A stretch of DNA of 64,000 bases, taken from assembly GCF_003149145.1 (NCBI RefSeq), contig NZ_QGDQ01000001.1:1-64000 (forward strand). Direction: 5' to 3'. A program made the translations under genes and the position numbers. Source of the stretch: Quadrisphaera granulorum (GTDB taxonomy: Bacteria; Actinomycetota; Actinomycetes; Actinomycetales; Quadrisphaeraceae). Every line of letters starts with the position of its first letter. Positions within the stretch are counted from its first letter, which is position 1. Positions 43,730 to 64,000 of the stretch are shown here, in pieces. Under the pieces are notes generated by a model, which was not told the DNA's origin, did not search any database, and saw only the letters and a list, made by a program, of their open reading frames with translations.

Positions 43730-47365
<3,636 letters not shown>

Positions 47366-48521: not shown

Positions 48522-49496
48522 GTGAACGACGAGAGCAGCGCAGGGCATGGGCCGGCGGGGCAGGCAGCGCCGGCGAGGTGGTGGCGCGGGGCACACCCGC
48601 ATCGGCCGCGGGGGCGCGAGGTCTCGCTGACCCCGCTGGTGCGGGTGCTCGCCGTCGTCGTCGTCGTGCTGGTGGTGGTCGGACCGACCGTCCGCATCGC
48701 GGTGGAGGCGGTGCAGGGTGACGCCGCGCTGCCGCTGGCCTGGCTCGACGAGGCCAAGCGGCAGACCGACCTCGACGGCGAGGCGAACCTCCCCGCGACG
48801 TTCAGCGCCGTCCTGCTGGCCCTCGTGGGGGTGGCCCTGCTCGCGCTCGCGGGCGTGCGGCGTGCCCGGGGCGAGCGTGCGCGGCCGGTGGTGGTGCTGG
48901 CGGCGGTCGCGGGATACCTGGGCCTGGACGAGGCCACCGAGCTTCACGAGTCGCTCGCGCTCGTCGCCGAGCACCTGCACGCCACCCTCGGGCTGCACAA
49001 CTTCGCCTGGCTGGTCCCTGGCGTGCTGGTCGCGGCTGCGGGCGGGGTCGTCGTCCTCAGACTGGCCAGGGCGCTGCCGCGGCGCTTGAGGTTGCGGCTG
49101 ATGGGCGCGGGCGCGGTCTACCTCTTCGGTGCACTCGTCATGGAGTACGTCACGAGCTTCTTCCTCGTGGACCTGCCGGGGACGGCGGAACTCACCGCAC
49201 CGCAGCCGGTCTCCTACATCCTCCTCAACGCCGTGGAGGAGGGGGCAGAGATGCTGGGGGCGCTGCTCGCGCTCGCCGCTGTGCTTGCCGAGCTACGACT
49301 GCGCGTCGTCGACGGGGGAGTCGCCGTGGTGGGCGTCTCGCAGAGCGTCACCGCGGGTGCTGTGCGCCACTCGGGGGGTCTGGGGGGTGATCCTTCCCTC
49401 GGAAGGACCGCCGCGGTCGACGCAAGCCCCGGCGGAGTGGTTACCGTCAGCGAGCATCGGCAGGGGCACCTGCACGGGGGAGAAGGAGAACGATGA
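48522..49496 (+). CDS. Polytopic membrane protein with conserved DE-x4-HE motif, unknown function
   Basis: 324 residues from GTG 48522 (GGAGGGGG at 48508-48515). About six or seven hydrophobic helices are seen between ~40 and 260. Charged residues lie at helix borders: GYLGLDEATELHESLA, VMEYVTSFFLVDLPG and ILLNAVEEGAEMLGALLALA. The DE-x-x-x-E-x-HE and EEGAE groups could bind a metal, but this is inference. The C-terminal 60 residues are polar. The gene is translationally coupled to the aminotransferase (ATGA), so it belongs to the same pathway. Confidence 0.75.
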   Translation: MNDESSAGHGPAGQAAPARWWRGAHPHRPRGREVSLTPLVRVLAVVVVVLVVVGPTVRIAVEAVQGDAALPLAWLDEAKRQTDLDGEANLPATFSAVLLALVGVALLALAGVRRARGERARPVVVLAAVAGYLGLDEATELHESLALVAEHLHATLGLHNFAWLVPGVLVAAAGGVVVLRLARALPRRLRLRLMGAGAVYLFGALVMEYVTSFFLVDLPGTAELTAPQPVSYILLNAVEEGAEMLGALLALAAVLAELRLRVVDGGVAVVGVSQSVTAGAVRHSGGLGGDPSLGRTAAVDASPGGVVTVSEHRQGHLHGGEGER

Positions 49497-50755
49497 GCAC
49501 CGACACCAGCCTCGACAGCAGCCTGGACCCGACCTTGGGGGCATCCCAGGGCGAGGTGTCGGCTCTCGGCGTCGCCCCCCTGACCGAGCTCCGCTACCCG
49601 GCGCTCGGCCCGGCTGACCCCGTCCCGGTCTACCGCCCCTACCTCGGCGCGGAGGTCCAGGAGGCGGCTCGCTCGGCCCTGGAGGCCGGCTGGCTCGGCA
49701 TGGGCAAGCTCAGCCAGGACTTCGAACTCGGCCTGGAGTCGTTCCTCGGGCTCGGTCCGAGCGGCCGGCGCGCGGTGTCCACCAACTCCTGCACCGAGGC
49801 ACTGCACCTGGCCGGCCAGCTCATCGGTCTCGGCCCCGGCGACGAGGTCATCGCGCCGTCGTTCACGTACGTGGCCGGCCACCAGGCGATGAGCCGTACC
49901 GGAGCATCGGTGGTCTTCGCCGACATCGAGGACCGGCGCCTCTGCCTCGACCCCCAGCGGGTCCGCGAGGCCATCACCGAGAACACCAAGGCCATCCTCG
50001 CCGTCGACTACCTCGGTCTGCCCTGCCAGCTCGACGAGCTCCTCGAGATCGCCTCCGAGCACGGGCTGCGCGTCATCGAGGACGCCGCGCACGCCTTCGG
50101 CACCGTCTCCGCTGGACGTCCCGTCGGCTCCTTCGGCGACATCACGTGCTTCAGCTTCGGCCCGGTGAAGACCATCACCACCCTCGAGGGCGGAGCGATC
50201 ATCACCTCCGACCCCGCCGACGTCCAGACGTTGCACGAGCTGCGACACCTCGGCATCGACGCCGACACCGACGCGCGGTACAAGAACCAGCGCAACTGGG
50301 AGTTCGACGTGGTCCGGCAGGGCTTCCGCTGCCACCTCGGCTCGGTGCCGGCCGGGATCGGCCTGGCGCAGCTCGCCCTCGTGGACGAGTTCATCACCAA
50401 CCGTCGCGAGTACTGCAAGGCCTACGACGCCGCGTTCGCCGACCTCGCCGAGGCGGGCCACCTGCAGCTGTTCGACACCGACTGGGAGGGCGTGGCTCCC
50501 TACATCTACGTCATCCGCGTTCGCGACGCCGTGCGCCGCGCCGACCTCATCGCCCACCTCAAGGCGAAGGGCATCGGGTCCGGCATCCACTTCCTCGGTG
50601 CCCACGAGTTCTCCTTCTACGCCGACTCGCGCCGCGGACCGCTGCCGGTGACGGACCTGGCCACCAGCCAGGTGCTGACGCTGCCGCTGCACCCGTACAT
50701 GGACTCCGCCACCATCGACCGCGTCGTCGATGGTGTGCGCACGTTCTTCCAGTGA
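49493..50755 (+). CDS. DegT/DnrJ/EryC1/StrS family sugar aminotransferase
   Basis: 420 residues; ATG 49493 overlaps the membrane-protein stop. PLP fold type I: STNSCTEALHLAGQLIGLGP, DEVIAPSFTYVAGHQAM and VIEDAAHAFGTV. The Schiff-base Lys is about K226 in FSFGPVKTITTLEGGAI. The enzyme would transaminate a keto sugar bound to a nucleotide, giving an amino-deoxy sugar for the glycan. The first ~40 residues are a non-conserved extension. The following GT-like gene starts 7 nt later. Confidence 0.93.
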   Translation: MSTDTSLDSSLDPTLGASQGEVSALGVAPLTELRYPALGPADPVPVYRPYLGAEVQEAARSALEAGWLGMGKLSQDFELGLESFLGLGPSGRRAVSTNSCTEALHLAGQLIGLGPGDEVIAPSFTYVAGHQAMSRTGASVVFADIEDRRLCLDPQRVREAITENTKAILAVDYLGLPCQLDELLEIASEHGLRVIEDAAHAFGTVSAGRPVGSFGDITCFSFGPVKTITTLEGGAIITSDPADVQTLHELRHLGIDADTDARYKNQRNWEFDVVRQGFRCHLGSVPAGIGLAQLALVDEFITNRREYCKAYDAAFADLAEAGHLQLFDTDWEGVAPYIYVIRVRDAVRRADLIAHLKAKGIGSGIHFLGAHEFSFYADSRRGPLPVTDLATSQVLTLPLHPYMDSATIDRVVDGVRTFFQ

Positions 50756-50762
50756 GGGTCCC

Positions 50763-51716
50763 GTGAACGTCAGAGTGGGCGGGTGGGAGCACACCGCCAC
50801 GCTGGCGCAGGTGCGCGGCGGCAGCACCGGTCGTCTGCGCGTCATCTACCGCTCCTACGGGGGTGACAACCTCAAGCGGCGCCCCGAGTACTACTCGAAG
50901 ACGACGTCGCTGCTGTCGTTCCTGCGTGCGCTCGACCGCGTGGAGGCCGACGTCGTCTTCATGAACAACGGCCCCATCGCCGAGGATCGCCTGGCGCTCA
51001 TGCGGGGTCGCGGTGAGATCGTCAGCATCGGCCCCACGAACATGCAGGGCTCCTGGCTGACGATGCTGAAACTGGCGGCCACCTGGGGCGACGACCTCGT
51101 CTGGCTCGCCGAGGACGACTACCTCTACACCGAGGAGTCCCTGGCCACGCTGGTCGAGGCGGCGGCGGCGCTGCCCGACGTCGACTACTTCGCCCTGTAC
51201 GGCGTGACCGAGAACTCCTGGTACCTGCCGCCGGGGCTGGAGCAGCCGAGGCCGCGCGGCTGGACCGACCGCGAGGAGTTCGTGGGTGGTCAGCGGTGGC
51301 AGCGCATCGACTCCACAGCGAGCACCTTCGGCGTGCGGGCGAACGCGCTCGCGCAGGACGTCGGCATCTTCAGGCTCGCGATGATCCCTCACCGCAGCAT
51401 GTACCGCGACCATGACATGTTCCACGGCGTCCAGGGCTACGAGACGCACCGCTGGAGCGACCTGGCCCGCACGCTCGCGCTGCGCGGGGAGGGGAGCCTG
51501 ATGCGCAAGCTGCGGCGCGTCTACCTCGCGCCGTTCCTCGTGGCGAGCAACCTGCGCTCACACCGCAGGCCGGAGCACCGCCGGTTCCTCATGGCGGCGG
51601 ATCCGAACGTCATCGCGCACATGGAGATCGAGCTCCTGCCCCCGAACCACGACTGGGCCGCCGAGGCGGCCAGCGTCGTCGCCTGGGCCGAGCAACGCCA
51701 GCTCGTCCGCCCCTGA
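50763..51716 (+). CDS. Uncharacterised GT-like protein, family X, copy 1
   Basis: 317 residues from GTG 50763. Homologous along its length to 59757-60680. Shared blocks are V-x-YRS-x-GG-x-N, RP-x2-YSK, SFLRA, ADVVF-x-N-x-GP, EDDYLY, YFALYG, PH-x2-MxRDHD, RRPE-x-RR and PN-x3-HME. EDDYLY near residue 115 could be a metal-binding DxD-type site in a GT-A fold, hence GT-like. No named family was recognised, no signal peptide or membrane helix. It is probably in an operon with the aminotransferase and converges on a GH26-like gene. Confidence 0.75.
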   Translation: MNVRVGGWEHTATLAQVRGGSTGRLRVIYRSYGGDNLKRRPEYYSKTTSLLSFLRALDRVEADVVFMNNGPIAEDRLALMRGRGEIVSIGPTNMQGSWLTMLKLAATWGDDLVWLAEDDYLYTEESLATLVEAAAALPDVDYFALYGVTENSWYLPPGLEQPRPRGWTDREEFVGGQRWQRIDSTASTFGVRANALAQDVGIFRLAMIPHRSMYRDHDMFHGVQGYETHRWSDLARTLALRGEGSLMRKLRRVYLAPFLVASNLRSHRRPEHRRFLMAADPNVIAHMEIELLPPNHDWAAEAASVVAWAEQRQLVRP

Positions 51717-51725
51717 CCTCCCGCT

Positions 51726-51750
51726 GACCGGTGGCGACCCGTCATCGGTC
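51726..51750. terminator. Weak hairpin between convergent genes
   Basis: An 8-bp stem with one G·U pair (TGACCGGTG region with CATCGGTC) and a 9-nt loop in the 55-nt gap between the family X gene and the GH26-like gene. May terminate both. Confidence 0.4.
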
Positions 51751-51771
51751 CAGCAGCCAGCCAGTTGTCGG

Positions 51772-52926
51772 TCAGCCCCCGAACGAGCGGCGGAACTCGG
51801 CGGAGGATGCAGGCAACCTGCCGGAGGGCAGCAGCGTGAACGCTCCGCCGAAGCCGCTGCTCACGTTGAACTGGCACGCGTAGAGAACCTGGCCGGGCCC
51901 GGCGCCGGCGTGCGTTCCCAGCCATGCGCGCAGCGACGTCACGAAGGCGGGGGAGTCGCCGCCGGAGCTGTCAGCGCACACCGACCACTCCGGCAGCGCC
52001 AGCGGCACACCCCACCTGCCGGCGAGGTCGCGGAAGGCGTCCAGCCCGGCGGGACCACCCCATCTGTCGTGCGCGGGGAGCCAGCGGGCGAAGTCCTCCG
52101 CGGTGGCCAGGTAGGGGTAGCGGTTGTAGTAGCCGACGCCGAGCACGTCGAGCTGCCCTGGGCCGGGGTGCAGGACTGAGCTGTCGGCGTCCAGGCCCAC
52201 GGTGTTGTGGTTGAGGGAGAAGACGAGCTGCGCCGAGGGGAAGAGCGTTCGCTGGAGGGCTCGGTACCGCTGCCAGGCGCGCTGGAAGTCACCCACCTCG
52301 GCGGCCCGCACGCTCCACGGGTACCAGTTGCCGTTCATCTCATGGGCGAACCGGATGAACGTGGTGCCTGGCGCGGAGCCCCTGACCGCGGCGAGGGCGC
52401 GCAGCGAGGCGGTCCAGAGCTCGTCACAGGCACCGCTGGCTGCCTGGGCCCACGTGGTGCCCGCGCCGAACGCTCCGACGGCGACGTCGAGGGCGCGGGT
52501 CCAGCCGGCAAGCTCGCCGCCGGGCTGCAGCACCGGCAGGTGCGTGCTCGACCAGGTGCTGTCGGCCCAGGTGGCCGTGAGGTCGAGCTGCCGGCCGAGC
52601 AGGCGCTCGTACTCACCCGTGGCCACTCCGTCACCCGCGGCGCCGAGCATGAAGGGCAGGCCGCTGGCAGCCGACTGGAGCAGGCTGGGTGCGGCAGGGC
52701 TCACGGCCGCGACGGTCCGGGCGGTGGCCACCCTTCGGCGCCTCCTGGTGGGCCGACGGGCTGCGGCCGCGGGGCCGGTCGCGGCTCCCACGAGCGCCCC
52801 GCCCAGCGCCGTGGCGGCACAGGCCAGCAGAGCGCGACGCCCGGGCGGGCGGGTGGGGGCGGTCCCGGAGCCGGCGACGGGCCCGGTCGAGGGGGCGCTC
52901 ACGGGGCGGTGCTGATCGAGCGTCAC
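51772..52926 (-). CDS. Exported GH26-like glycoside hydrolase, copy 1
   Basis: 384 residues from GTG 52926. A Tat-like signal (RRALLACAATALGGALVG) precedes a basic RRPTRRRRR stretch. The catalytic domain begins near residue 88 (PFMLGAAGDGVATGEYERLL). FIRFAHEMNGNWYPW carries the GH26 acid/base Glu and LALPEWSV the nucleophile Glu. GH26 enzymes cut beta-mannans or related beta-glycans. This one is homologous to 58517-59641. It probably trims or degrades a polymer outside the cell, and may process the locus's own product. Confidence 0.85.
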   Translation of the reverse strand: MTLDQHRPVSAPSTGPVAGSGTAPTRPPGRRALLACAATALGGALVGAATGPAAAARRPTRRRRRVATARTVAAVSPAAPSLLQSAASGLPFMLGAAGDGVATGEYERLLGRQLDLTATWADSTWSSTHLPVLQPGGELAGWTRALDVAVGAFGAGTTWAQAASGACDELWTASLRALAAVRGSAPGTTFIRFAHEMNGNWYPWSVRAAEVGDFQRAWQRYRALQRTLFPSAQLVFSLNHNTVGLDADSSVLHPGPGQLDVLGVGYYNRYPYLATAEDFARWLPAHDRWGGPAGLDAFRDLAGRWGVPLALPEWSVCADSSGGDSPAFVTSLRAWLGTHAGAGPGQVLYACQFNVSSGFGGAFTLLPSGRLPASSAEFRRSFGG

Positions 52927-52986
52927 GCAGCGATGATGCCGCAGACCGGATCTCGTGGGGCGGAGGGGATGAAACGGGCGAACAGG

Positions 52987-54144
52987 TCAGCGGGAGCGGC
53001 GCGCGGCGGCCTGCAGGGCCCCGGCCCACCCGTCGGCCATGGCTGCCACGTCGAACTGCTCCACGTGCTCCAGGCCCGCGGAGGCCTTGGCGCGCAGCGG
53101 GGCAGGGTCGCGCAGGTGCCGCAGCAACGCCTCGGTGAGAGCGGGGACGTCTTCGACGGGCACCAGCTCGCCGGTGCGGCCGGAGTCGAGCACTTCGCGT
53201 ACCCCGGCGCTGGAGTCCGTGGCCAGGCACGGCACACCCAGCGCGACGGCCTCAATGAGCGCCAGGGGCAGTCCCTCGTGGCGCGAGGGCAGGCAGAACA
53301 GGTCAGCACGCGCCACCTCGGGCAGCGGCGCGTCGATGGCGCCGGCGAATTCCACGGTCCCGCTCACGCCGAGCCGCGCGGCCTGCGCCTCCAGCGCCTG
53401 GCGGTCGGGACCGTCGTTGAGGATGCGCAGCCGGTGGGGGACGCTGCGTACGGCCGTGGCGTGGGCCTGCAGCAGCAGGTCATAGCCCTTCTGCGGGGCG
53501 AGCCTGCCGGTGGCCACGACCACCGGTAGGTCGGCGAGGGCGGCCGCCGGCGCGTCCGCCACGGGCTGGGCCGCTCCCGCCGCTCTCACGGCGGCGAGAT
53601 CGACGCCGTTGCGCACCACGTGGAGCTTCCACCGCGGCAAGCCGTTGGCGAGCACGGGGGCCACCACCCCGGCGTCGATGCAGACGGCGGCGTCGGCGCG
53701 GCGGTGAACCATCCGGATCACCCATTGAGCCGACCTCGGGACCCACTCCTCGAGGGCGTCGTCGAGGTCAGCGTGCACCGACACGACGAAGGGGCGGTGT
53801 GCCAGGCGCGCCGCGAGCCAGCCCAGCACGAGTCCGGGGCCGATCTCCGAGGTCGCCAGGACCACGTCGTGCCGGCGCGCCATCCTCGCGAGACGCAGGA
53901 GCGACGGCACGGCGGTGGCCCGCAGCCGCTGCCCCGGCCTCCCCAGGGTGACCACCGGCGCCTCGGGGGGCGCTTCGAGGATCTGTGCGTCCGTGGGCTG
54001 CTGGAGCACGACCAGCTCACCGCTGCCATGACCCCACCGCTCCAGCAGCGAGAGCACCACGCGGGTGGCTCCGGTGCGGAACAGGGCATCGGCGACGAGC
54101 AGCGTTCGGGGGGGACGGGGCGCCGGCCCGGCGGCGTCGCTCAC
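52987..54144 (-). CDS. Glycosyltransferase family 4
   Basis: 385 residues from GTG 54144; the longer frame upstream shadows the oxidoreductase gene. GT-B domains: RTLLVADALFRTGATRVVLS, RPFVVSVHADLDDALEEW and HVVRNGVDLAAVRAAG. Donor motifs VVVATGRLAPQKGYDLLLQA and FCLPSRHEGLPLALIEAVAL (E-x7-E) are well preserved. It is the most downstream gene of the minus-strand nucleotide-sugar operon and likely transfers the sugar made by 54218-57077. Confidence 0.9.
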   Translation of the reverse strand: MSDAAGPAPRPPRTLLVADALFRTGATRVVLSLLERWGHGSGELVVLQQPTDAQILEAPPEAPVVTLGRPGQRLRATAVPSLLRLARMARRHDVVLATSEIGPGLVLGWLAARLAHRPFVVSVHADLDDALEEWVPRSAQWVIRMVHRRADAAVCIDAGVVAPVLANGLPRWKLHVVRNGVDLAAVRAAGAAQPVADAPAAALADLPVVVATGRLAPQKGYDLLLQAHATAVRSVPHRLRILNDGPDRQALEAQAARLGVSGTVEFAGAIDAPLPEVARADLFCLPSRHEGLPLALIEAVALGVPCLATDSSAGVREVLDSGRTGELVPVEDVPALTEALLRHLRDPAPLRAKASAGLEHVEQFDVAAMADGWAGALQAAARRSR

Positions 54145-54217
54145 GGCGACACTGTGGCGCACTCCCCGGGGGCGGTGCCGCAGGGGGTGGTGTTCTGCGG
54201 AGCGACGGGTGTGCACT

Positions 54218-55507
54218 TCAGCCGACGGGGAGGCGGGCGTCCTGCGCGGCGCGCAGCTCGTCCACGAGGCGCCCGGAGGGCACGTCGACCATGTCGTAGG
54301 TGATGACGGCGTCCTTCGGGACGTCGACCAACAGCCTGCAGCCCGGAGCCAGTCCCAGCGGCAGCAGGCGCTGCTCACGAGCCGTGGTGGCGTCCTCGGC
54401 CTGCCCGTAGACGTGGTACCCGCCGAGGCCGTCGATGGTGGTGCCGGCAGCCAGGTCGGTCTTGGCGGTGGTGAGCACCTCGACCTTGAGGTCGCCGGCG
54501 GCCACGAGGGCGGCATCGCCGAAGTCGACCGCGCGGACCACCGTCGTGGGCACCTCGAAGTGGCAGAGGTGGTATGGCGTGTAGAAGGAGTACAGCGGTC
54601 CCTCGCCCAGCTTGTAGAGGTTGAGGTAGTGCTGCTGCTTGGGGTCGTCGTGGGTGGCGAGCACATAGACGCCTGGGCCGGGCTGGGAACCGACGACGTA
54701 GTCGACGACACCGCCCTTGGCCTTCAGCTCCTCGACGTCGTAGCGGGAGATCAGCTCGTCCACATGGCCACGGTGGTCCCAGCCGTTCATCCCGCGCTTC
54801 GGCACCGTCATGCCCCAGGCGTTGGCCACGATCGCCTGCTCGAAGGAGATCTTCGTGCCGTCGGCGAAGCTCGTGACCATCCACGGGTCCTGACCCCACC
54901 GCTCGGCGAACGCCTGCTGCGTGGTGGGGGTGCGGTAGGGGTCCTGCAGGCCCTTGATGTTGCCGGCCACCAGCGGCGTCAGCCCGATGCCACGCACGAA
55001 GCGCAGCAGGTTGACCGTCACGCCCGGCTGGTCGCCGTCGGCGCCGGTGAACATGACGCCCGCCGCGGCGAACCGGCGGGCGATCTCCGGGCCTACCGTT
55101 GCGTCGAGCTCGGCGTTCATGGTCACCACGGGGGTGCCGGCCTCGAGTGCCGCCAGGGTGATCTGCGCCCCGAACTCGACGGCACCGGTCACGTCGACCA
55201 CGCAGTCGATGCCGTCAGCGGCGACGAGCTCGAGGGCGTCGGCGACGACGGCCGGCGTGCCCTCACGGATGCTGCGTTCCAGCTCGGCGCGGGAGTCGAC
55301 GACCTTCGCCGCTGTCCCGGCCTCCTCGTAGGCTCGCAGCCCCTTGGCCTCGGTGCGGTTGGCGATGGCCACCAGCTCCATGCCCGGGGTGCTGTTGATG
55401 ATCTGGTTGGCCAGACCTCGCCCCTGGAACCCTGCGCCGACCATGCCGACGCGGATGGGGCGACCTTCTCGCTGCCGCTTCGCCAGGGCGCTGTCAGTGA
55501 TGATCAC
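54218..55507 (-). CDS. NAD(P)-dependent oxidoreductase with C-terminal SAF-like domain
   Basis: 429 residues from GTG 55507, which overlaps the RmlC-like stop (GTGA). N-terminal Rossmann fold: IRVGMVGAGFQGRGLANQII and CVVDVTGAVEFGAQITLAAL. It resembles the dehydrogenase half of homoserine dehydrogenase-type proteins. The C-terminal ~70 residues (TTIDGLGGYHVYG, LPLGLAPGCRLLVDVPKDAV) form a SAF-like beta domain. Seen in surface-sugar clusters, but the exact reaction is not established. Its place in the operon suggests reduction or chain modification of a nucleotide keto-sugar. Confidence 0.88.
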   Translation of the reverse strand: MIITDSALAKRQREGRPIRVGMVGAGFQGRGLANQIINSTPGMELVAIANRTEAKGLRAYEEAGTAAKVVDSRAELERSIREGTPAVVADALELVAADGIDCVVDVTGAVEFGAQITLAALEAGTPVVTMNAELDATVGPEIARRFAAAGVMFTGADGDQPGVTVNLLRFVRGIGLTPLVAGNIKGLQDPYRTPTTQQAFAERWGQDPWMVTSFADGTKISFEQAIVANAWGMTVPKRGMNGWDHRGHVDELISRYDVEELKAKGGVVDYVVGSQPGPGVYVLATHDDPKQQHYLNLYKLGEGPLYSFYTPYHLCHFEVPTTVVRAVDFGDAALVAAGDLKVEVLTTAKTDLAAGTTIDGLGGYHVYGQAEDATTAREQRLLPLGLAPGCRLLVDVPKDAVITYDMVDVPSGRLVDELRAAQDARLPVG

Positions 55508-56055
55508 GAGGGGGCCTTTCCGCCGTTCTCGGCCAGCAGGGGCCAGGAGGCGTCCTTGTCGGAGATGACGGCGACCGGCACCGGCCAGGACAGGCCGAGG
55601 TCGGGGTCGTCGTGGCGCAGGCCGCGCTCGACACCGGGGGTGTAGGGAGCGGAGACGTTGTACGTGGCCTCGGTGTCGTCGACGAGGGTGATGAACCCGT
55701 GCGCGAACATCGGCGGCACGTACAGGGCCACGTGGTTGTCCGCGGTGAGCTCCACCGAGACGTGCTGCAGGTACGTGGGGGAGTCCGGGCGGACGTCGAC
55801 GATCTGGTCGTACAGCGCCCCGCGGGTGCATCGGACCAGCTTGGCCTCGGGGGCCACGGGCAGCTGGTAGTGCATGCCGCGCAGCGTGCCGGCCTTCTTG
55901 TTGAAGGAGATGTTCGCCTGGACGAGCTCGGTGTCGAGCCCGGCCTCGGCGAAGGCCGCCTTGTCGAAGGAACGGGCGAAGAAGCCGCGCTCGTCGGTGT
56001 GCGGCTCGATGTGGACGATCGCGACGCCCGCGATGGGAGTGCTGAGGATCTTCAC
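55504..56055 (-). CDS. RmlC-like nucleotide-sugar epimerase (cupin)
   Basis: 183 residues from GTG 56055, overlapping the SDR stop (GTGA); an upstream extension in frame is Arg/Pro-rich shadow. RmlC features: RGFFARSFDKAAF, GTLRGMHYQLPVAPEAKLVR (catalytic His), YDQIVDVRPDSPTY, PPMFAHGFITL and TYNVSAPYTPG (catalytic Tyr). It is distinct from the true rmlC at 2307 and is sandwiched between an SDR and a SAF oxidoreductase, so it probably acts on a different, perhaps CDP-linked, 4-keto sugar. Confidence 0.9.
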   Translation of the reverse strand: MKILSTPIAGVAIVHIEPHTDERGFFARSFDKAAFAEAGLDTELVQANISFNKKAGTLRGMHYQLPVAPEAKLVRCTRGALYDQIVDVRPDSPTYLQHVSVELTADNHVALYVPPMFAHGFITLVDDTEATYNVSAPYTPGVERGLRHDDPDLGLSWPVPVAVISDKDASWPLLAENGGKAPS

Positions 56056-57077
56056 TTGCTGGTCCAGAACAGCCCGGCGTCGATCTGCCCGGTGGCGAGC
56101 AGGTGCTCGAGCTGCTTGAGGCGGGTGTGGCCGCGGCCGGTGAAGGTGGCCTCGTCGAGCTGGATCGCCTCGAAGACGTCGTGCAGCTGCTGGGCGCCGC
56201 GGGCGGCGTCCCACTGGCACTCGAAGTCCGGCAGGACCTTCTTGATCTTATCGAAGTTCACCTTGTAGGAGCGGTTGTCCGCGCTCGGCGGGCCGAAGGT
56301 CAGCTCGCAGCCCGGGAACGCCGCGGCGACCTTCTCGGCGATGTCGCGCACCTGGTAGTTCTGCTCGTCGGAACCGACGTTGAGCACCTCGGCGCGCACG
56401 GTCTCCGCCGGCGCGGTGAGCACCCGGCGGATCGCCTGGGCGATGTCCAGGCCGTGAACCAGCGGACGCCATGGGGTGCCGTCGCTGTTCATGGCGATCT
56501 TGCCGGTGGTCCACGCCAGACCGGCGAGGTTGTTGAGCACGATGTCGAAGCGCATCCGGGGGCTGGCGCCGAAGGCGGTGGCGTTGCGCAGGAAGGTCGG
56601 GGCGAAGGTGTCGTCGGCCAGGGGCGTCACGTCGCGCTCGACGCGCGCCTTGCAGATCGCGTAGGCGGTCTGCGGGTTCACCGGGCTGGTCTCGTCGACG
56701 GTGCCCTCGGCCACGCCGTACACCGAGCAGCTCGACATGTAAACGAACCGGCTCACCCCCGCCTGCTTGGCCACCTCGGCCAGGCGCACGGAGCCCTTGT
56801 GGTTCACCTCGTAGGTGACCTCGCCCAGCAGGTCGCCCAGGGGGTCGTTGCTCAGCTCGGCCATGTGGACGACGGCGTCGAAGCCGCGCAGGTCTTCGAC
56901 CTGCACGTCGCGGATGTCCTTGGCCAGCGTGGCCACCGTGCTGGTGACCCCGTTGTAGAGCCAACCGTGCTTGTAGTAGCCGGTGTCCAGGCCCGTCACG
57001 TCGTGGCCGTCCTCGACCAGCAGGGGAGCCAGCAGGCATCCCAGGTAGCCCTCGGTGCCCGTCACAAGGATCTTCAT
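56052..57077 (-). CDS. NAD-dependent epimerase/dehydratase (extended SDR)
   Basis: 341 residues from ATG 57077. Rossmann motif KILVTGTEGYLGCLLAPLL (GxxGxxG type), active site SSCSVYG with YAICKARVE (YxxxK), and DGTPWRPLVHGLDIAQAI. Acts on a nucleotide sugar. The lead gene of a tightly coupled set (SDR, RmlC-like, SAF oxidoreductase; each junction a GTGA overlap) followed by a GT4. It could use the CDP-glucose pool from rfbF at 39624, but no direct evidence shows which nucleotide it takes. Confidence 0.9.
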   Translation of the reverse strand: MKILVTGTEGYLGCLLAPLLVEDGHDVTGLDTGYYKHGWLYNGVTSTVATLAKDIRDVQVEDLRGFDAVVHMAELSNDPLGDLLGEVTYEVNHKGSVRLAEVAKQAGVSRFVYMSSCSVYGVAEGTVDETSPVNPQTAYAICKARVERDVTPLADDTFAPTFLRNATAFGASPRMRFDIVLNNLAGLAWTTGKIAMNSDGTPWRPLVHGLDIAQAIRRVLTAPAETVRAEVLNVGSDEQNYQVRDIAEKVAAAFPGCELTFGPPSADNRSYKVNFDKIKKVLPDFECQWDAARGAQQLHDVFEAIQLDEATFTGRGHTRLKQLEHLLATGQIDAGLFWTSK

Positions 57078-57223
57078 GGTGCTGCGGCCCCCGCATGTCG
57101 TGGTCGTCTCCGGAACGTCGCCCACGCTAACGGGCCGTGAGCAAACCCCTGGTCCTGCGGTCCTGCGGACGGGTGACTCTCCACAGTGCGTCACGTCCGA
57201 ACGTGCGCGATCACCCCCGTGCG

Positions 57224-58282
57224 TCAGCCACGAGTCACGACCCGTCCGCCGACGGTCGCCGTCGTCGTCGCCGCCCCGACGGCGTACGCCCAGTGCTCGC
57301 GAGCGCGTCGGCGGTCACCGCGGGCGACCTGCTCGGCGGCGCGCACGGCGTAGCCGGCCGCGGTCAGTGCGCGCATGGCGAGTGCCGGCAGCGGCGCGTG
57401 GTGCTTGCGCACGTAGCGGGCCATGGAGGCGCCGCGGAGCCGCATCATCTCCAGGCTGGGTGCTCCGGACCCGCCGCTGGCTCCGGGCACCAGCACGTCG
57501 GTGCGTAGCTTCTCGTGCAGGCCGCGCTCGCGGCTGGCCCGGCCGAAGGCCATGTCCTCGTTGTAGACGTAGAAGTCGCTGTCGAAGCCGCCCAGCTCGG
57601 TGAACACCTCTCGTCGCACGGCCATGCAGCCGCCGCTGACCCAGTCGACGCGCAGTGGTTGGTTGGCGCGGGGCATCGCGTAGACGCCGGCGGTGGGGAG
57701 CTTCTTGTGCAGGCCGGCTGCGTGGACCGCGACGCGGCGAAGGGTCGGCTCCCAGCCGCCGCAGCCGATCTGGGGCTGCGGTGGCACGGGGCGGCCCGCT
57801 GCGTCGTGGGTGTCGACGATGCAGGCGCCGCTGGCGGCGCACGTGGGGTCGGCGCGGACGTCGGCGACGACGGCGGCCAGGTGCTCGGGCGTGGGGCGGA
57901 CGTCGGGATTGACGAACACGACCACCGACGCCGTCGAGCTCAGTGCGCCCCGGGTGGCGGCCCGGGCGAAGCCCACGCCGCCGCCCTCCAGGTAGCGGCC
58001 GTGCGTGCGTGCCTCGACGACGGCGCGCAGCCCGTCGGACCCGTCGGAGTTGTCGACGACGACGAGGGGCAGGTCGCGGGGGAGCCCGGCGAGCATCTGC
58101 TCGACCTGGTCCCTGCTGCGGTAGGCGACCACGACGAGCTCGACGTCCTCGAGCGGCCCGAGGGACGGCTGGGCCGCCTGCGCCGCGGTGCCGTCCGAGG
58201 GCTGCTGGGGGGGATGGGCGGGCACGGGTCCTCCACCGGTGGGTCCTGCGAGTGGTCGGGAGCGCTGGGTGAGCTCGACCAC
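57224..58282 (-). CDS. Glycosyltransferase family 2 (rhamnosyltransferase-like)
   Basis: 352 residues from GTG 58282. After a ~45-residue Pro/Gln-rich lead: VELVVVAYRSRDQVEQML, LVVVDNSDGSDG, VVVFVNPDVRPTPEHL and DFYVYNEDMAFGRASRERG. This NPD / YNED pattern resembles WbbL-type enzymes like 24244. The C-terminus has amphipathic helices (RYVRKHHAPLPALAMRAL). It lies 146 nt upstream of the SDR operon on the same strand and is divergent from the GH26-like gene; the 234-nt divergent space shows no clear palindrome. Confidence 0.88.
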   Translation of the reverse strand: MVELTQRSRPLAGPTGGGPVPAHPPQQPSDGTAAQAAQPSLGPLEDVELVVVAYRSRDQVEQMLAGLPRDLPLVVVDNSDGSDGLRAVVEARTHGRYLEGGGVGFARAATRGALSSTASVVVFVNPDVRPTPEHLAAVVADVRADPTCAASGACIVDTHDAAGRPVPPQPQIGCGGWEPTLRRVAVHAAGLHKKLPTAGVYAMPRANQPLRVDWVSGGCMAVRREVFTELGGFDSDFYVYNEDMAFGRASRERGLHEKLRTDVLVPGASGGSGAPSLEMMRLRGASMARYVRKHHAPLPALAMRALTAAGYAVRAAEQVARGDRRRAREHWAYAVGAATTTATVGGRVVTRG

Positions 58283-58516
58283 CCGATCGGGCGCGTCAGG
58301 GGTGTCGGCCGCGAGTCCGCGGGAAACCCTGACGACACGGGAACGCTACGCGAGGTGCGCCACACGTCCCCTCGTCCGGCCGCGATGAGTCGCCCGCTCG
58401 GCCGCCCGTGGGTGACCATGGAGGCCGGTCCCGCAGCACGCTGGGAGCGGGCCGGCTCCGCACGGGGGCCCGCCGACAGCTTGACGACCAGCCAGACCAG
58501 CAGGGGGAGCTCACCG

Positions 58517-59641
58517 ATGGCAGCCATGCCACCGTCCACGTCCGAGAGGCGCGCCGCCGCGCCGCCGCCGGAGCCGCACCACCCGACGCGCCGCCGCGCC
58601 ATCGGCATCGGCGCCGGCGCGGTGGCGGTCGCCGGCCTCGGCACCTGGCTCGGTGTGCGGGTGCTCGGCGGTTCCGAGGAGCCGACACCGCCGCCGTCAG
58701 CGCCGGCACCGGAGCCCACCGGGACGCCGTTCGTGCCGGCGGAGTGGATGTCCGGCGCGGCGGGCGAGGGCGTCGCCGACGGCTCCTACGCCGCCGCGCG
58801 CGGCAGCGACCTGGACATTTCCGCCACGTGGTTCGACAACAACGAGGCCATGCTCAAGCAGTACACGCTGCAGCCCGGGGCGGAGTACGCGTCCTGGAGC
58901 AAGCCCCTCGACGTCGCCCTCGGGGCGATCGACCTGGACGATGGGGAGTCCTGGGCGCGGGCGGCCCAGGGCGCCTACGACGACCGCTGGCGCGAGTCGC
59001 TCACACGGCTGCGCGACACCTGGGGCTCCCGCCCGGGCACCGTGTACATCCGCTTTGCCCACGAGCTCAACGGCAACTGGTACGGGTGGCGAGTCCGCTC
59101 GAACGAGGTCGACGACTTCAAGACCGCCTGGGCGCGCTACCGCGCGCTCCAGCAGGAGATCTTCCCCGCCTCCAAGCTCGTGCTCTGCATGAACCGTGAG
59201 ACGGTCCGCGACGAGAAGGCCGGCGACGCCGGGATCGACTGGCGCACGCTGTACCCCGGTGACGGCCTCGTCGACGTCATGAGCGTCGACTACTACAACC
59301 AGTTCCCGTCCGTGGAGTCCGACGAGGGCTGGGAGGCGGCGATGGTCCTCAAGGACCAGTGGGGCGCCCCCAAGGGTCTGCAGGGCCACCTCGACTTCGC
59401 CAGGACCGTCGGGTTGCCGCTGGCGGTCTCGGAGTGGTCCGGCAACGCCGAGGAGGGCGACATGCCGGTGTTCGTCCGTCGCATGCACGACTTCTTCACC
59501 CGTCACGGCGGCACCGGCGCAGGTCAGGTGCTCTACGAGATCCAGTTCAACGTCGACATGGACGGTGGGCAGTGGCTGCTGGTCAGCCCGAAGACCCGGA
59601 TGCCGGAGTCGGCCGCGATGTACACCAGCCTCGCCTGGTAG
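58517..59641 (+). CDS. Exported GH26-like glycoside hydrolase, copy 2
   Basis: 374 residues from ATG 58517 (GGGGGAG 8 nt upstream). N-terminus TRRRAIGIGAGAVAVAGLG looks like a Tat signal or membrane anchor, followed by a Pro-rich spacer (~60-72). The catalytic domain begins MSGAAGEGVADGSYAAARGS. VYIRFAHELNGNWYGW holds the acid/base Glu and LAVSEWSGNAEEG the nucleophile Glu. Clearly homologous to copy 1 but diverged. Unlike copy 1 it keeps little linker. It converges on family X copy 2 across a strong terminator. Confidence 0.87.
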   Translation: MAAMPPSTSERRAAAPPPEPHHPTRRRAIGIGAGAVAVAGLGTWLGVRVLGGSEEPTPPPSAPAPEPTGTPFVPAEWMSGAAGEGVADGSYAAARGSDLDISATWFDNNEAMLKQYTLQPGAEYASWSKPLDVALGAIDLDDGESWARAAQGAYDDRWRESLTRLRDTWGSRPGTVYIRFAHELNGNWYGWRVRSNEVDDFKTAWARYRALQQEIFPASKLVLCMNRETVRDEKAGDAGIDWRTLYPGDGLVDVMSVDYYNQFPSVESDEGWEAAMVLKDQWGAPKGLQGHLDFARTVGLPLAVSEWSGNAEEGDMPVFVRRMHDFFTRHGGTGAGQVLYEIQFNVDMDGGQWLLVSPKTRMPESAAMYTSLAW

Positions 59642-59698
59642 CCGCGGTGCCGCGGGTCGGCCCGCTCCTGCCCTGTTCACCCGGCTCGCTCCGGTGGG

Positions 59699-59742
59699 AC
59701 GGCGAAGGCCCCCGGACCTCTCGGTCCGGGGGCCTTCGCCGT
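59699..59742. terminator. Strong bidirectional hairpin between convergent genes
   Basis: Perfect 20-bp stem (59699-59718 with 59723-59742, beginning ACGGCGAAGGCC) with loop TCTC, in the 115-nt gap between GH26 copy 2 (stop 59641) and family X copy 2 (stop 59757). Confidence 0.88.
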
Positions 59743-59756
59743 GGTGGGTGATGCCG

Positions 59757-60680
59757 TCAGGCGCTGATGCCGTCGGCGGTGAGCAGACCTCGCTCCGTGC
59801 CCCAGGCCTGCGCGTCGGCCGCGACGGCGTCCCAGTCGGTGCCGGAGGCGATCCGCAGTACCTCCATGTGCGTCGCCAGGTTCGGCTCGACCGCGAGGAA
59901 CGTGCGGCGCCGCTCCGGACGGCGGGTCAAGGCGCGGGCCACCGTGGCCAGCAGGAACGGCAGGATCAGCGCGTCGCGCACGCGCATCTTGAGGCTGCGG
60001 CCACGCTCGTAGAGCGGGTGCACCAGGTCGTACGGGCGGTAGGGGCTGAAGCCCTGGATCGCGACGCAGGTGTCGTGGTCGCGCAGCATGTTCTTGTGGG
60101 GGTACATGCAGAGCTTGAAGATTCCCTTGTCCTCGCGCAGCGCGCCCAGGCGGGCGCCGAGGGTCGAGGTGGTGCTCTGCATGCGCACCCAGTCGCGTCC
60201 TTCGCTACGGAAGGGTCCCAGCTGCACCCACCCGGGCGGCGGCTCGGAGGTCGGCTCGTCGGGTCCGTGCACGGAGCGGTCAGGGGTGGAGCCGTACAGC
60301 GCGAAGTACTGCGCCGGCACGGCCTCCGGGCCGTCGGCCGCTGCGACGAGCGCGGTGAACGCCTCCGGGTGGTACAGGTAGTCGTCCTCGCTGAACCAGA
60401 CGACGTCGTCGTCGTCCCAGTCGGAGTCGACGGCGAGGGAGATCGCGCCCCAGTACGAGGCACGCATCCCCGAGCCTTCCAGCTCGACGACCTTGCCGTG
60501 GCGGTCCATGAGGCCGCGCAGGGCGGGAGCGACCGGCCCGTCGTTGAGGAAGACGACGTCGGCGTCGACAGCTTCCGCCGCACGCAGGAACGAGACCAGG
60601 CATGTGAGCTTGCTGTAGCCCGGAGGCCTGTTCTTCTCGTTCTCACCGCCCCATGAGCGGTACACCACCCTCAGCGCCAC
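59757..60680 (-). CDS. Uncharacterised GT-like protein, family X, copy 2
   Basis: 307 residues from GTG 60680 (AAAGGA about 8 nt upstream). It is homologous to 50763-51716 throughout: LRVVYRSWGGENEKNRPPG, CLVSFLRAAEAVDADVVFLN, VVWFSEDDYLYHPEAF, YPHKNMLRDHD and EPNLATHMEVLR. No signal peptide. The SEDDYLY motif suits a GT-A catalytic Asp pair. The acceptor and donor are unknown. It sits alone, convergent to GH26 copy 2 and divergent from the GT2 at 60897 across 216 nt. Confidence 0.75.
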   Translation of the reverse strand: MALRVVYRSWGGENEKNRPPGYSKLTCLVSFLRAAEAVDADVVFLNDGPVAPALRGLMDRHGKVVELEGSGMRASYWGAISLAVDSDWDDDDVVWFSEDDYLYHPEAFTALVAAADGPEAVPAQYFALYGSTPDRSVHGPDEPTSEPPPGWVQLGPFRSEGRDWVRMQSTTSTLGARLGALREDKGIFKLCMYPHKNMLRDHDTCVAIQGFSPYRPYDLVHPLYERGRSLKMRVRDALILPFLLATVARALTRRPERRRTFLAVEPNLATHMEVLRIASGTDWDAVAADAQAWGTERGLLTADGISA

Positions 60681-60896
60681 GTGCAGTTCCTTTCTCGGGC
60701 CTTCTCGACAGGGCCGAGGATCACGGCCGCGCGTCAGTCCGAGCACGTCGGCGTGCCCCTCATCGACGGTACCTCCCTGGGACTCGGGGGTTGACGCTGT
60801 GGCAGGGTCGCGTCACCCGACTGGTTGCTGCGTGGACGACGGACCCTCTTTTGTCCGCGTAGATTCGGACGCATCCGGAACCACGAGGAGGTGCGC

Positions 60897-61958
60897 GTGA
60901 GCGCCCTGACCGACGCCACCCGCACCGGCGCTCCCACACCCGAACCGACCGGCGCCCAGGTGCCCGCGTTGCCCGCCGTCGAGGTCACCGTGCTGGTGCC
61001 TGCCCGCGACGAGCTCGGGTCCATCGAGCGGTGCCTAGACTCCATCCTCGCCCAGCAGGGCGTCGACTTCGAGATCGTCGTCGTCGACAACGGCTCCACC
61101 GATGGCACCGCCGAGCTGCTGGCCGCCCGCGCCGATCGCGATCCGCGCATCGTCGTCGTCCACCAGCCGGAGCCGTCGATCCCGCTGAGTCTCAACGCCG
61201 GGCTCGCCCGCGCCCGCGGTCGCTGGCTGGTCCGCGTCGACGCGCACTCCACCATCAGCGACGGCTACCTGGCGCACGCGGCGAAGCGTCTCCGAGAAGG
61301 GCGCTGGGCCGCTGTAGGGGGCCGCAAGACCGCCGTGGCACGCACCTCGCGTGGCCGCGCCGTCGCCGCCGTCCTCAACTCCAAGCTCGCGGTGGGTGGG
61401 TCCACTTACCACTGGGGCACCGAGGAGCAGGTGGTCGACCACGTGCCGTTCGGCTGCTACCCCACCGAGCTCGTGCGCCAGCTGGGCGGTTGGGACACCG
61501 AGATCGCCAACAACGAAGACTTCGAGTTCGACCAGCGGCTGCGCCGCGAGGGCGAGATCCTCTTCGACCCGGCGCTCACCATCGACTGGGACTCCCGAGA
61601 GAGCGTCGGGGCCCTCTACCGGCAGTACCGCCGCTACGGCTCCGGCAAGCCCGGCGTCGCGGTGCGCCACCCGAGGAGCCTGCGTCTGCGGCACCTGGCG
61701 CCGCCACTGCTCGTGGTCTACCTCGTGGGCGCTGCGGTGGTCGGGTTGCGCCGGCCCGGGGTAGCCCTGGCCGCAGTCGTCCCGTACGCCATCGGCGTCA
61801 CGGCGGTCGGGGCGCGCATCGGCAGGTCGGCCCCGCCCGGCGCCGACCGCGCTGCCATCCCGCTGGCCCTTGCGGCGATGCAGGTCGGCTGGGGCGTCGG
61901 CTTCTGGCGCGGCGCCACCGCACTCCTGCGGCGCGCCGGCTCCCGGCGCAACGCGTGA
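60897..61958 (+). CDS. Glycosyltransferase family 2 with C-terminal membrane helices (ExoA-like)
   Basis: 353 residues from GTG 60897 (GGAGG 5 nt upstream; GTG 60891 is too close). VEVTVLVPARDELGSIERCL, EIVVVDNGSTDGT and the acceptor/donor motif RWLVRVDAHSTISDGYLAHA, with NNEDFEFDQRLRREG as the catalytic-base ED. The RVDAHS and NEDFE pair is typical of succinoglycan ExoA-type enzymes. Three hydrophobic stretches follow after residue ~265, so it is membrane-bound. Coupled to the polymerase gene by GTGA overlap. Confidence 0.9.
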   Translation: MSALTDATRTGAPTPEPTGAQVPALPAVEVTVLVPARDELGSIERCLDSILAQQGVDFEIVVVDNGSTDGTAELLAARADRDPRIVVVHQPEPSIPLSLNAGLARARGRWLVRVDAHSTISDGYLAHAAKRLREGRWAAVGGRKTAVARTSRGRAVAAVLNSKLAVGGSTYHWGTEEQVVDHVPFGCYPTELVRQLGGWDTEIANNEDFEFDQRLRREGEILFDPALTIDWDSRESVGALYRQYRRYGSGKPGVAVRHPRSLRLRHLAPPLLVVYLVGAAVVGLRRPGVALAAVVPYAIGVTAVGARIGRSAPPGADRAAIPLALAAMQVGWGVGFWRGATALLRRAGSRRNA

Positions 61959-63304
61959 CCGCGCTCGCTCGGCCGACGCGTCCGGCCGAGACGGCACCGC
62001 AGACCGCAGGGGTGCACCTGCAGCCGGTCGACGAGCACCGTCCGAACCGCACCGACCTGCGCATCGTCAGCGTCTTCACGGTGCTGCTCGTGCTCACCAA
62101 CCGCATCGGCGTGCCCGCGGGGGAGACGGCCATCTCCGTCGGCATCCCCCTCGCCTACATCTTCTCCGCGGTGATGATCTTCCGTGGGGTACTGCGCGTC
62201 GACAGGCTCCGCGGGGAGCTCTACCTGCTGGCCGTCGGCGCCACCCTGGCCACCACGGCCTGGATCGCGGTGTCCGGGCGCGACTTCTCCATGACCTCGT
62301 ACCTGCTGCTGGTGGTCGTCTACCTGCCGTGGATCCTCAGCACCGGCGGCCCGGCGGGCCGTGACGTCGTCCTGGCCGCGGGGCGCGCTTTCGTGGGCAC
62401 GATGCTCGTGCTCTCCGTGGTCGGGGTGCTGCAGCTGCTCAGCCAGCTCGCCGGGGTCTGGAGCTTCCGCGACTACCTGTCCGACTGGGTGCCCACCGGC
62501 TGGATCGTGCCGTTCTACAACTTCGACAACCCCCTGGGCTACGACAACCCCGTGCGCAAGGCCAACGCGTTCGTGCTGCTCGAGCCGTCGTTCCTGTCGC
62601 AGTACGCCGCGCTCGCGGTGCTCGTGGGCCTGGTCATCGGGGTCCGGGCGTGGAAGCAGGCGGTGCTGCTCGCCGGCGTCGCCTCCGCGGTCTCCGGGAC
62701 CGGCGTGCTGCTCCTGGCCGTCGGCGGAGTCCTCGTCGTGGCCCGCGCCCCCAAGCTCGTACGGCCCAGCCACCTGGTGGCCGGAGCCCTGGGCGTGCTC
62801 ATCGTCTTCATGACACCCGTGGCGGACGTGCTGCTGAGCCGACGCGGCGAGCTGTCCGAGCCGGGATCCAGCGGGTACGCGCGCTTCGTCTCGCCGTACC
62901 AGGAGGTGCTCCGGGGCCTCGCGGAGGAGACCCAGCGCAACGTGGTGGGTGCCGGTGCCGGCATGACCGAGCGCCTCCTGGCCTCCAACCGGTACGGCGG
63001 CGGCGACGACGTCCTGTACGGCGTCGTCCCCAAGCTCCTCTTCGAGTACGGGCTCGTCGCCGGCGGCCTCGTGCTGCTGTTCATCGTGCTGGCCGTCCTG
63101 GACAGGGCGCCCCTGCCGGTGGTGCCCGTCGCCATGCTCTTCATGGTCATGGTGCTCTCCGGGGCGCTGCTGCAGCCGCAGACGGCATACCTCGTGTGGC
63201 TGCTCTCCAGCATCGGCGGCGGTGACGTCGTGCGTCGCGTGGTGCTCCGGCGGCAGAAGGAGCGCGCCGCGCCACCGGAGGACGAGCTGGCAGTTCCGGC
63301 CTGA
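61955..63304 (+). CDS. O-antigen ligase/polymerase-like membrane protein (Wzy/WaaL type), copy 2
   Basis: 449 residues from GTG 61955, overlapping the previous stop. About 11-12 hydrophobic helices. A periplasmic loop (GELSEPGSSGYARFVSPYQE, RNVVGAGAGMTERLLASNR, YGVVPKLLFEYGLVAG) matches the O-antigen ligase region with its conserved Arg/Glu. It would polymerise or ligate a second repeat unit. There is no extra HTH segment, unlike copy 1 at 20231. Two large hairpins follow the gene. Confidence 0.85.
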   Translation: MTALARPTRPAETAPQTAGVHLQPVDEHRPNRTDLRIVSVFTVLLVLTNRIGVPAGETAISVGIPLAYIFSAVMIFRGVLRVDRLRGELYLLAVGATLATTAWIAVSGRDFSMTSYLLLVVVYLPWILSTGGPAGRDVVLAAGRAFVGTMLVLSVVGVLQLLSQLAGVWSFRDYLSDWVPTGWIVPFYNFDNPLGYDNPVRKANAFVLLEPSFLSQYAALAVLVGLVIGVRAWKQAVLLAGVASAVSGTGVLLLAVGGVLVVARAPKLVRPSHLVAGALGVLIVFMTPVADVLLSRRGELSEPGSSGYARFVSPYQEVLRGLAEETQRNVVGAGAGMTERLLASNRYGGGDDVLYGVVPKLLFEYGLVAGGLVLLFIVLAVLDRAPLPVVPVAMLFMVMVLSGALLQPQTAYLVWLLSSIGGGDVVRRVVLRRQKERAAPPEDELAVPA

Positions 63305-63601: not shown

Positions 63602-64000
63602 TCAGTCGAGGTCGGTGCCGGTCCCGTGCCGGCGCATCAGGCGGATCACCATGATCCACTGGATGGGTGTGACGACACACTGCGCCAGGGACAGTCCGAG
63701 CGCCGCGCCGTAGGCACCGCCCATCTGCAGACCGACGAGGCCGAACACGATGAGCGCCGGCCCGAGCACGAGGTTGGTCCAAAAGGTCTGCTTCGCGAAG
63801 CCGAGGGCCACGAGCAAGGTGCTGGCGCCAAAGCCCGCACCGATGGCGACCAGGCCCACGAGGGAGGCGCCGAGCACGCCGCGTGCACCGTCCCAGTTCT
63901 GCTTGAAGGCGAGCTCACCCCAGCTGTCGGGAATGGACAACACCACCAACCCGTAGGCGAGCTGCGCGGCCACCATCACGGCGGACAGGGCAAGGCCGAC
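63602..64000 (-). CDS. Polysaccharide flippase-like membrane protein (partial)
   Basis: The last ~132 residues of a gene that runs past the right edge; the frame is open to base 64000. Four or so hydrophobic helices with QNWDGARGVLGASLVGLVAI and LGPALIVFGLVGLQMGGAYG resemble the second half of MOP/Wzx flippases. It converges on the polymerase at 61955. A second flippase beside a second Wzy-like gene supports two separate export systems in this region. Confidence 0.65.
   Translation of the reverse strand, partial: VGLALSAVMVAAQLAYGLVVLSIPDSWGELAFKQNWDGARGVLGASLVGLVAIGAGFGASTLLVALGFAKQTFWTNLVLGPALIVFGLVGLQMGGAYGAALGLSLAQCVVTPIQWIMVIRLMRRHGTGTDLD

Follow-up and report, generated by a model that had tools for sequence, protein, structure and literature searches.

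Why would an actinobacterium keep close together, in mutually inverted orientation, two diverged versions of a gene pair that couples a transferase-like protein to a glycoside hydrolase of the GH26 type? This question is raised by the Quadrisphaera granulorum contig NZ_QGDQ01000001.1, whose positions 1 to 64,000 are called the window here and supply all coordinates, with genes past its end given by contig position. One pair consists of X1 (50763–51716, plus strand) and GH26-1 (51772–52926, minus strand), and the other of GH26-2 (58517–59641, plus strand) and X2 (59757–60680, minus strand), wherein X denotes the gene family of X1 and X2. The X proteins are 43% identical over 300 aligned positions, and the GH26-like proteins are 45% identical over 303. 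Gene calls reproduce the gene order and strands given in the original prediction, which had been made from the sequence alone, and confirm that both pairs are convergent and mutually inverted. Our preferred reading, to which we assign a probability of roughly 0.6, is that these genes form the central part of a cluster of the Wzx/Wzy type for an exopolysaccharide or capsule, and that this cluster carries two diverged accessory X–GH26 modules, with the roles for X and GH26 that are proposed below.

X is predicted to adopt a GT-A glycosyltransferase fold

Neither X1 nor X2 matches any Pfam or NCBIfam model, and a sequence search with X against solved structures found nothing. The glycosyltransferase family 2 (GT2) model PF00535 matches 13 of 44 X members, but weakly, with E-values of up to 1 and a best value of 1.7e-4. 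The AlphaFold model of X1 is confident (mean predicted local distance difference test score (pLDDT) of 88.7 and predicted template modeling score of 0.88), and when used as a Foldseek query it matched GT-A enzymes with a best E-value of 4.1e-06, albeit at low template modeling (TM) scores of about 0.3 to 0.5 and with nucleotidyltransferases of related fold also among the matches. By VIA-align, in a comparison confined to Foldseek's own matches, the X1 model aligned with GnT-I, LH3, WrtF, SpsA, and TarP at Z-scores of 13 to 14 over approximately 170 to 230 residues. We are confident in the GT-A glycosyltransferase fold predicted from these models, which for X2 is taken from the X1 model by homology, and the earlier description of X as transferase-like is borne out by it.

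Nine residues (R30, K38, R40, P41, W179, D199, D216, H286, and E288) are invariant across the 44 aligned X rows. The sequence EDDY is likewise found in 44 of 44, but most rows were gathered with the pattern W[FL][SA]EDDYL, so that its conservation is partly by construction. X is best read as a new and clearly delimited GT-A family for which there is no curated model. We infer from the predicted fold that its members are soluble glycosyltransferases, probably metal dependent and probably inverting.

The GH26-like proteins look like competent hydrolases

GH26-2 scores 26.8 bits with PF02156, above the cut-off of 20.2, and GH26-1 falls below it at 13.7 bits. The assignment of GH26-1 is therefore based on its homology to GH26-2, on the match of the family profile to solved GH26 enzymes, and on its catalytic residues. 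When the family profile was searched against solved structures it found GH26 enzymes, the first being the Clostridium thermocellum lichenase CtLic26A (4e-22), and this enzyme was also the best fold match (E-value of 5.7e-15) for the GH26-2 model, which has a pLDDT of 94.9. Of 39 GH26 rows, 38 have the two catalytic glutamates, among them the two from the window, and the protein from L095 lacks the first (L-numbers denote loci, G-numbers genomes, and c-numbers protein clusters over the loci).

A hydrophobic N-terminal segment was found in 11 of 16 N termini inspected, and several of the remaining five represent late or cut gene starts. GH26-1 has an N terminus resembling a twin-arginine translocation (Tat) signal, GH26-2 an N-terminal anchor or Tat-like signal, and three of four Frankia GH26 proteins shown (L069, L078, and L079) a lipobox-like stretch. 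The original prediction of an exported hydrolase agrees with these features: judged by their residues, the proteins look enzymatically competent, with beta-glycan hydrolysis as the predicted activity, and they are likely exported or membrane anchored.

The genome of the window organism holds at least five GH26 matches (six by profile search, in which six candidates were scored) versus two copies of X. Longer GH26 frames were seen in congeners, where G001:C14:117927–122307 carries three GH26 matches in a row, two of them sharing one open frame of 1438 residues and the remaining one in a 1370-residue frame, and G002:C123 carries a similar array.

X and GH26 recur together in other actinobacterial families

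A scan of a named genome collection yielded 38 X loci, all with actinobacterial titles. Combined with the window and two further loci of its genus, they form a set of 41 sources with 46 X copies. A GH26 gene directly adjoins X in 19 of the 46, compared with 6.6 on average and at most 15 when gene order within each source was shuffled 2000 times, a comparison that includes related loci and ignores operon structure. The X–GH26 pairing is real and recurs across actinobacterial families.

The convergent orientation proved less general than had been supposed. Adjacent pairs are convergent in the window's genus and in Geodermatophilaceae, and three other loci (L083, L084, and L089, from Pseudonocardiales and Pseudokineococcus) are convergent with one intervening gene, but X and GH26 are codirectional in Frankiaceae. 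GH26 was present in 33 cases, on the 3′ side of X in 28 and on the 5′ side in five. The mirror symmetry of the two pairs was rejected as meaningful in itself: orientation differs elsewhere, the longest inverted DNA repeats (best 174 nt, 72%) are the homologous genes paired with each other, and the arrangement is unsurprising because direct and inverted are the only two orientations that one convergent pair can take with respect to another. A terminator shared by the convergent genes was likewise rejected, since no intrinsic terminator match was found in 50700–61000.

The most compact arrangement was observed in nine Frankia loci (L069–L071, L078, L079, L081, L082, L086, and L096), wherein a Wzx-like gene, X, and GH26 directly follow one another on the same strand. 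The flanks of these triads contain no gene from the Wzy-, Wzz-, Bac_transf-, GT2-, or GT4-like protein clusters of the other loci, with the limit that some flanks are short and not all of their genes were scanned. A gene for a fused ATP-binding cassette transporter (c8) is located upstream of the Wzx-like gene in these loci. Downstream, on the opposite strand, an acyltransferase gene (c26) is present in L070, L071, L078, and L086, and a gene for a PMT_2-type membrane glycosyltransferase (c40) in L070, L078, and L086; the notion that the triads have no other glycosyltransferase nearby was rejected on account of the latter. In Pseudofrankia-type loci, X and GH26 are 3 to 7 kb apart.

In a survey of the class, X was detected in 24 of 394 genomes and GH26 in 121. 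All 24 genomes with X also carry GH26, as do 97 of 370 without X (Fisher p = 8.8e-14, a value that overstates the evidence because 23 of the 24 X genomes belong to one family and the genomes are not phylogenetically independent). The distribution of X is patchy in Geodermatophilaceae, the family of L063, with X in 8 of 112 genomes. The occurrence of X in Frankia and Geodermatophilaceae had suggested a link to multilocular sporangia or multi-plane division, which was dropped given this frequency. As a further test, the four newly found genomes among these eight were examined, and all four have GH26 within 10 kb of X; it is adjacent and convergent in two (L100 and L101), and a Wzx gene is adjacent to X in three. 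GH26 is found 5 and 7 kb downstream of X in L104 and L105, which are not new but correspond to L076 and L095. Among 296 genomes of a phylum sample, only that of the window organism contains X, and a plasmid collection searched with X2 gave no match, leaving spread by plasmids unsupported.

These distributions bear on a looser relationship, in which X and GH26 would both be passengers of actinobacterial polysaccharide clusters and would not act on the same bond. Such a relationship would account for GH26 in the 97 genomes that lack X, for the separation in Pseudofrankia-type loci, and for the patchiness of X in Geodermatophilaceae. It fits poorly with adjacency above the shuffled level, with the contiguous, single-strand order kept in Frankia, and with the 3′ position of GH26 whatever its own orientation, and we regard it as unlikely. 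The two genes are best read as forming an accessory module within polysaccharide loci of actinobacteria.

Both pairs are kept in most congeners searched, and paired X and GH26 diverge together

Four of five congeners searched (G001, G002, G004, and G005) hold both pairs, approximately 9 kb apart. The statement that the arrangement has been kept for a long time therefore holds at the scale of the genus. The fifth, G003, has no X and five GH26 matches. Additional X copies occur elsewhere in G001 and G004, with no GH26 in the surrounding 20 kb.

Distances among X proteins track those among their own GH26 partners. The correlation for six pairs is 0.877, compared with 0.686 when the partners in the window are swapped (label permutation p = 0.0045); for twelve pairs including congeners it is 0.916 versus 0.844 when swapped, and for all 30 linked pairs it is 0.846, all of these values being without a species-tree correction. 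The X tree places X2 together with X3 and a copy from G010, which represents another genus of the same family, and X1 branches off on a long stem (0.76). The stem of GH26-1 in the GH26 tree measures 1.0, and the nearest relative of GH26-2 is an unpaired GH26 located at contig position 141 kb.

It is tempting to take these data as a sign of strictly matched pairs, in which X1 and GH26-1 would serve one linkage and X2 and GH26-2 another, whether in two separately controlled glycans or as two bonds of one repeat unit. The divergence of each X with its own GH26, the long stems shared by X1 and GH26-1 but not by the second pair, and the intact pairs in the four congeners are in keeping with this proposal. 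However, the same cluster contains a further GH26 without an X (GH26-3, see below), the nearest relative of GH26-2 is itself unpaired, and solitary X copies exist, and strict matching accordingly seems doubtful to us. The maker-and-cutter idea of the original prediction survives to the extent that X and GH26 are linked and diverge together, but not as a one-to-one rule, because GH26 outnumbers X and X occurs alone. Nothing in the results points to its suggestion of a separate glycan, or a separate strand of one glycan, for each pair.

Approximately unbiased (AU) tests were applied to the origin of the pairs. Holding X1, X2, and X3 together gave p = 0.048, or 0.084 when the G010 copy was included, and the matching GH26 test, with GH26-1, GH26-2, and the 141-kb group, gave 0.084, or 0.079 with G010. 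Joining GH26-1 to Geodermatophilaceae gave p = 0.019, and joining X1 to the same family gave 0.276. Acquisition of the two pairs on separate occasions, rather than by duplication in this lineage, is compatible with any of the functional readings. It is favored by the weak rejection of the X1, X2, and X3 grouping together with the matching GH26 value, but the p value rises once the G010 copy is included, a placement of GH26-1 with Geodermatophilaceae is itself rejected, and long branches are involved; we consider separate acquisition a realistic possibility at somewhat less than even odds. The tests are borderline, and local duplication is only slightly disfavored. The expectation that X and GH26 branch together holds insofar as each X co-diverges with its own GH26.

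The pairs lie within a larger polysaccharide cluster

The two pairs are separated by five genes, all on the minus strand. They encode a GT4 glycosyltransferase (52987–54162; PF13692, E-value of 9.3e-32), a DRL-type oxidoreductase (54218–55507; PF21135, 5.9e-54) with a weak SAF match of 19.3 bits against a cut-off of 21, an RmlC-type dTDP-sugar 3,5-epimerase (55504–56067; PF00908, 6.6e-62, and TIGR01221 above cut-off), a short-chain dehydrogenase/reductase (SDR) of the NAD-dependent sugar epimerase/dehydratase type (56052–57077; PF01370, 3.7e-39), and a GT2 glycosyltransferase (57224–58282; PF13641, 9.3e-08). This block had been taken for a nucleotide-sugar operon in its own right, an interpretation that we rejected because gene calls and Pfam matches place it among neighbors that appear to form a Wzx/Wzy-type cluster. 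Several Frankiaceae clusters that hold members of the same SDR and RmlC protein clusters have a C-methyltransferase-like gene (c11) nearby.

To the left of the pairs, all on the plus strand, are genes for a DegT/DnrJ/EryC1 sugar aminotransferase (49493–50755; PF01041, 4.7e-97), a hydrophobic protein without a Pfam match (c35, 48639–49496), and a protein that recurs in X loci, matches no Pfam or NCBIfam model, and is possibly a transferase (c34, 47447–48301). A member of c34 also adjoins Wzx and X in L098. The left border of the cluster is mfd, the gene for the transcription-repair coupling factor (43730–47365, plus strand; TRCF, CarD_TRCF_RID, UvrB_inter, and helicase domains), and this edge is kept in L060 and L061. 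In the Frankiaceae loci L104 and L105, an mfd-like gene (c22) likewise borders the cluster at its GH26 end, so this may be a shared insertion site.

The right flank inside the window comprises a GT2 glycosyltransferase gene (60891–61958, plus strand; PF00535, 9.4e-25), a gene for a Wzy-like polymerase (62012–63304, plus strand; c3), and the start of a Wzx-like flippase gene (63602–64000, minus strand, continuing to contig position 64864). The Wzy-like protein has about 10 hydrophobic segments, matches no Pfam or NCBIfam model, and is named by context and topology. The Wzx-like protein is 34 to 38% identical to members of the Wzx-like family c2, of which 5 of 14 scanned match PF01943 weakly (best 2.1e-5) and for which a sequence search against solved structures gave no match. 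Beyond the window, the Wzx-like gene is followed by GH26-3, a GT4 gene, a Wzz-like gene (PF02706, 20.4 bits, below the cut-off of 25.5), the initiating sugar transferase gene Bac_transf (L050:7077; a clear match, 5.3e-66), a mannose-6-phosphate isomerase-like cupin gene, and enolase. The cluster thus runs from mfd at 43730 to the enolase gene, reaching contig position 74488, and extends on both sides past the 50763–60680 span of the original prediction. GH26-3 (contig positions 65005–67401, L050:1005–3401, minus strand) is a protein of 799 residues with three CWB2 wall-binding repeats, and counterparts with three CWB2 stretches lie 4 to 5 kb beyond X2 in the four congeners that hold both pairs. 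With GH26-3, which has no X, the cluster includes three GH26 genes versus two X genes.

Proposed roles of X and GH26

We propose that X, given its predicted fold, would add one sugar to a lipid-linked repeat in the cytoplasm. The Wzx-like protein would then flip the repeat across the membrane and the Wzy-like protein would polymerize it, roles suggested by weak homology, topology, and gene neighbors. GH26, exported or anchored outside the membrane, would serve as an endo-glycanase on the finished polymer of its own cluster, and its cutting or remodeling would control polymer length, release, or turnover. Given that X and GH26 have diverged in step within each pair, variant linkages of the polymer made by the cell itself are the probable targets of the two pairs.

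GH26 enzymes are retaining, and their mechanism permits transfer. GH26 could therefore be a transglycosylase or ligase that works outside the membrane and transfers polymer chains to the cell wall or to other chains. The CWB2 repeats of GH26-3, here and in the four congeners, and the resemblance of several homologs to lipoproteins or anchored proteins would suit such a role, but the nearest solved relative is a hydrolase and the results hold no sign of transfer, which makes this alternative improbable.

Several observations weigh against our preferred reading of accessory modules within a Wzx/Wzy-type cluster, including those given above on the low TM-scores and nucleotidyltransferase matches of X, the relatedness of the loci and genomes that were counted, the operon structure ignored by the shuffle, and the uncorrected tree correlations. 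Model matches behind the Wzy and Wzz names are weak or absent. Wzx-like genes directly adjoin X in 21 of 46 copies, at least as often as GH26 does. No GH26 is found in the available flank of 13 of the 46 X copies, although L072 and L073 at least end at contig ends. Some X genes sit among regulators, and those of L055, L085, L067, and L068 are beside chemoreceptor, histidine kinase, or other genes atypical of polysaccharide clusters. Genus g79 has six GH26 matches (with six candidates scored) in each of six genomes and no X. Lastly, the sugar, the linkage, and the action of GH26 on the polymer of its own cluster are inferences.

A bolder version would have X found a new glycosyltransferase family and the Wzx-like–X–GH26 set form a portable actinobacterial module, in which the very bond made by X is later cut by its neighboring GH26, giving every cluster its own specific scissors. 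This module would be reduced to a bare triad in Frankia and doubled into two specificities in the window's genus. We consider this version rather unlikely as a whole. The sequence of a glycosyltransferase says little about its specificity, but the activity of an endoglycanase can be measured directly with isolated polymer. If GH26 does cut the linkage made by X, then the hydrolase would provide a readout for the X transferase family, and the doubled locus would allow two linkage assignments in one strain. The Frankia triad offers a small, testable system in plant-nodulating bacteria, and actinobacterial polysaccharide genetics gains in X a well-defined family that no curated model covers.

Comparison with known systems

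A search of the open-licence literature found no description of an X–GH26 module. The nearest described case that we found is the wps-1 cluster of Actinoplanes missouriensis, likewise an actinomycete cluster of the predicted Wzx/Wzy type, which encodes the GH26 protein WpsE (PMC13390465). Deletion of WpsE led to some abnormal sporangia and slightly fewer released spores, and the authors state that, as far as they know, Wzx/Wzy clusters containing a GH26 enzyme had not been characterized (PMC13390465). The wps-1 cluster differs in having one GH26 and sulfotransferases, and the passages of that report available to us describe no X-like protein (PMC13390465). The Q. granulorum cluster has two GH26 genes paired with X and a third with CWB2 repeats.

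Synthesis clusters that carry their own hydrolase or lyase include bcs with BcsZ, psl with PslG, and the alginate cluster with AlgL. In these systems, as proposed here, a cutter is encoded with the synthesis machinery, is exported, and acts on or near the nascent polymer, but the hydrolase and lyase families are different. We know of no recurrent neighboring GT-A gene like X, and of no duplicated pair, in the bcs, psl, or alginate clusters.

Among individual proteins, GnT-I (GT13) uses an EDD metal motif, and X resembles it in predicted fold (Z-score of 14) and in having an EDD motif at the expected strand end. X differs in that it gives no sequence match, is bacterial, lacks a consistent membrane anchor, and has invariant residues of its own. 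For the GH26-like proteins, CtLic26A is the best match by both profile and fold and shares the HE-x-NG motif and the second glutamate, but identity in the fold alignment is only about 16%, and the Frankia forms carry WEFNG instead of HExNG. What looks new here is X itself, its recurrent neighborhood with Wzx and GH26, and the doubled pair, whereas the encoding of a cutter together with synthesis is of a known kind.

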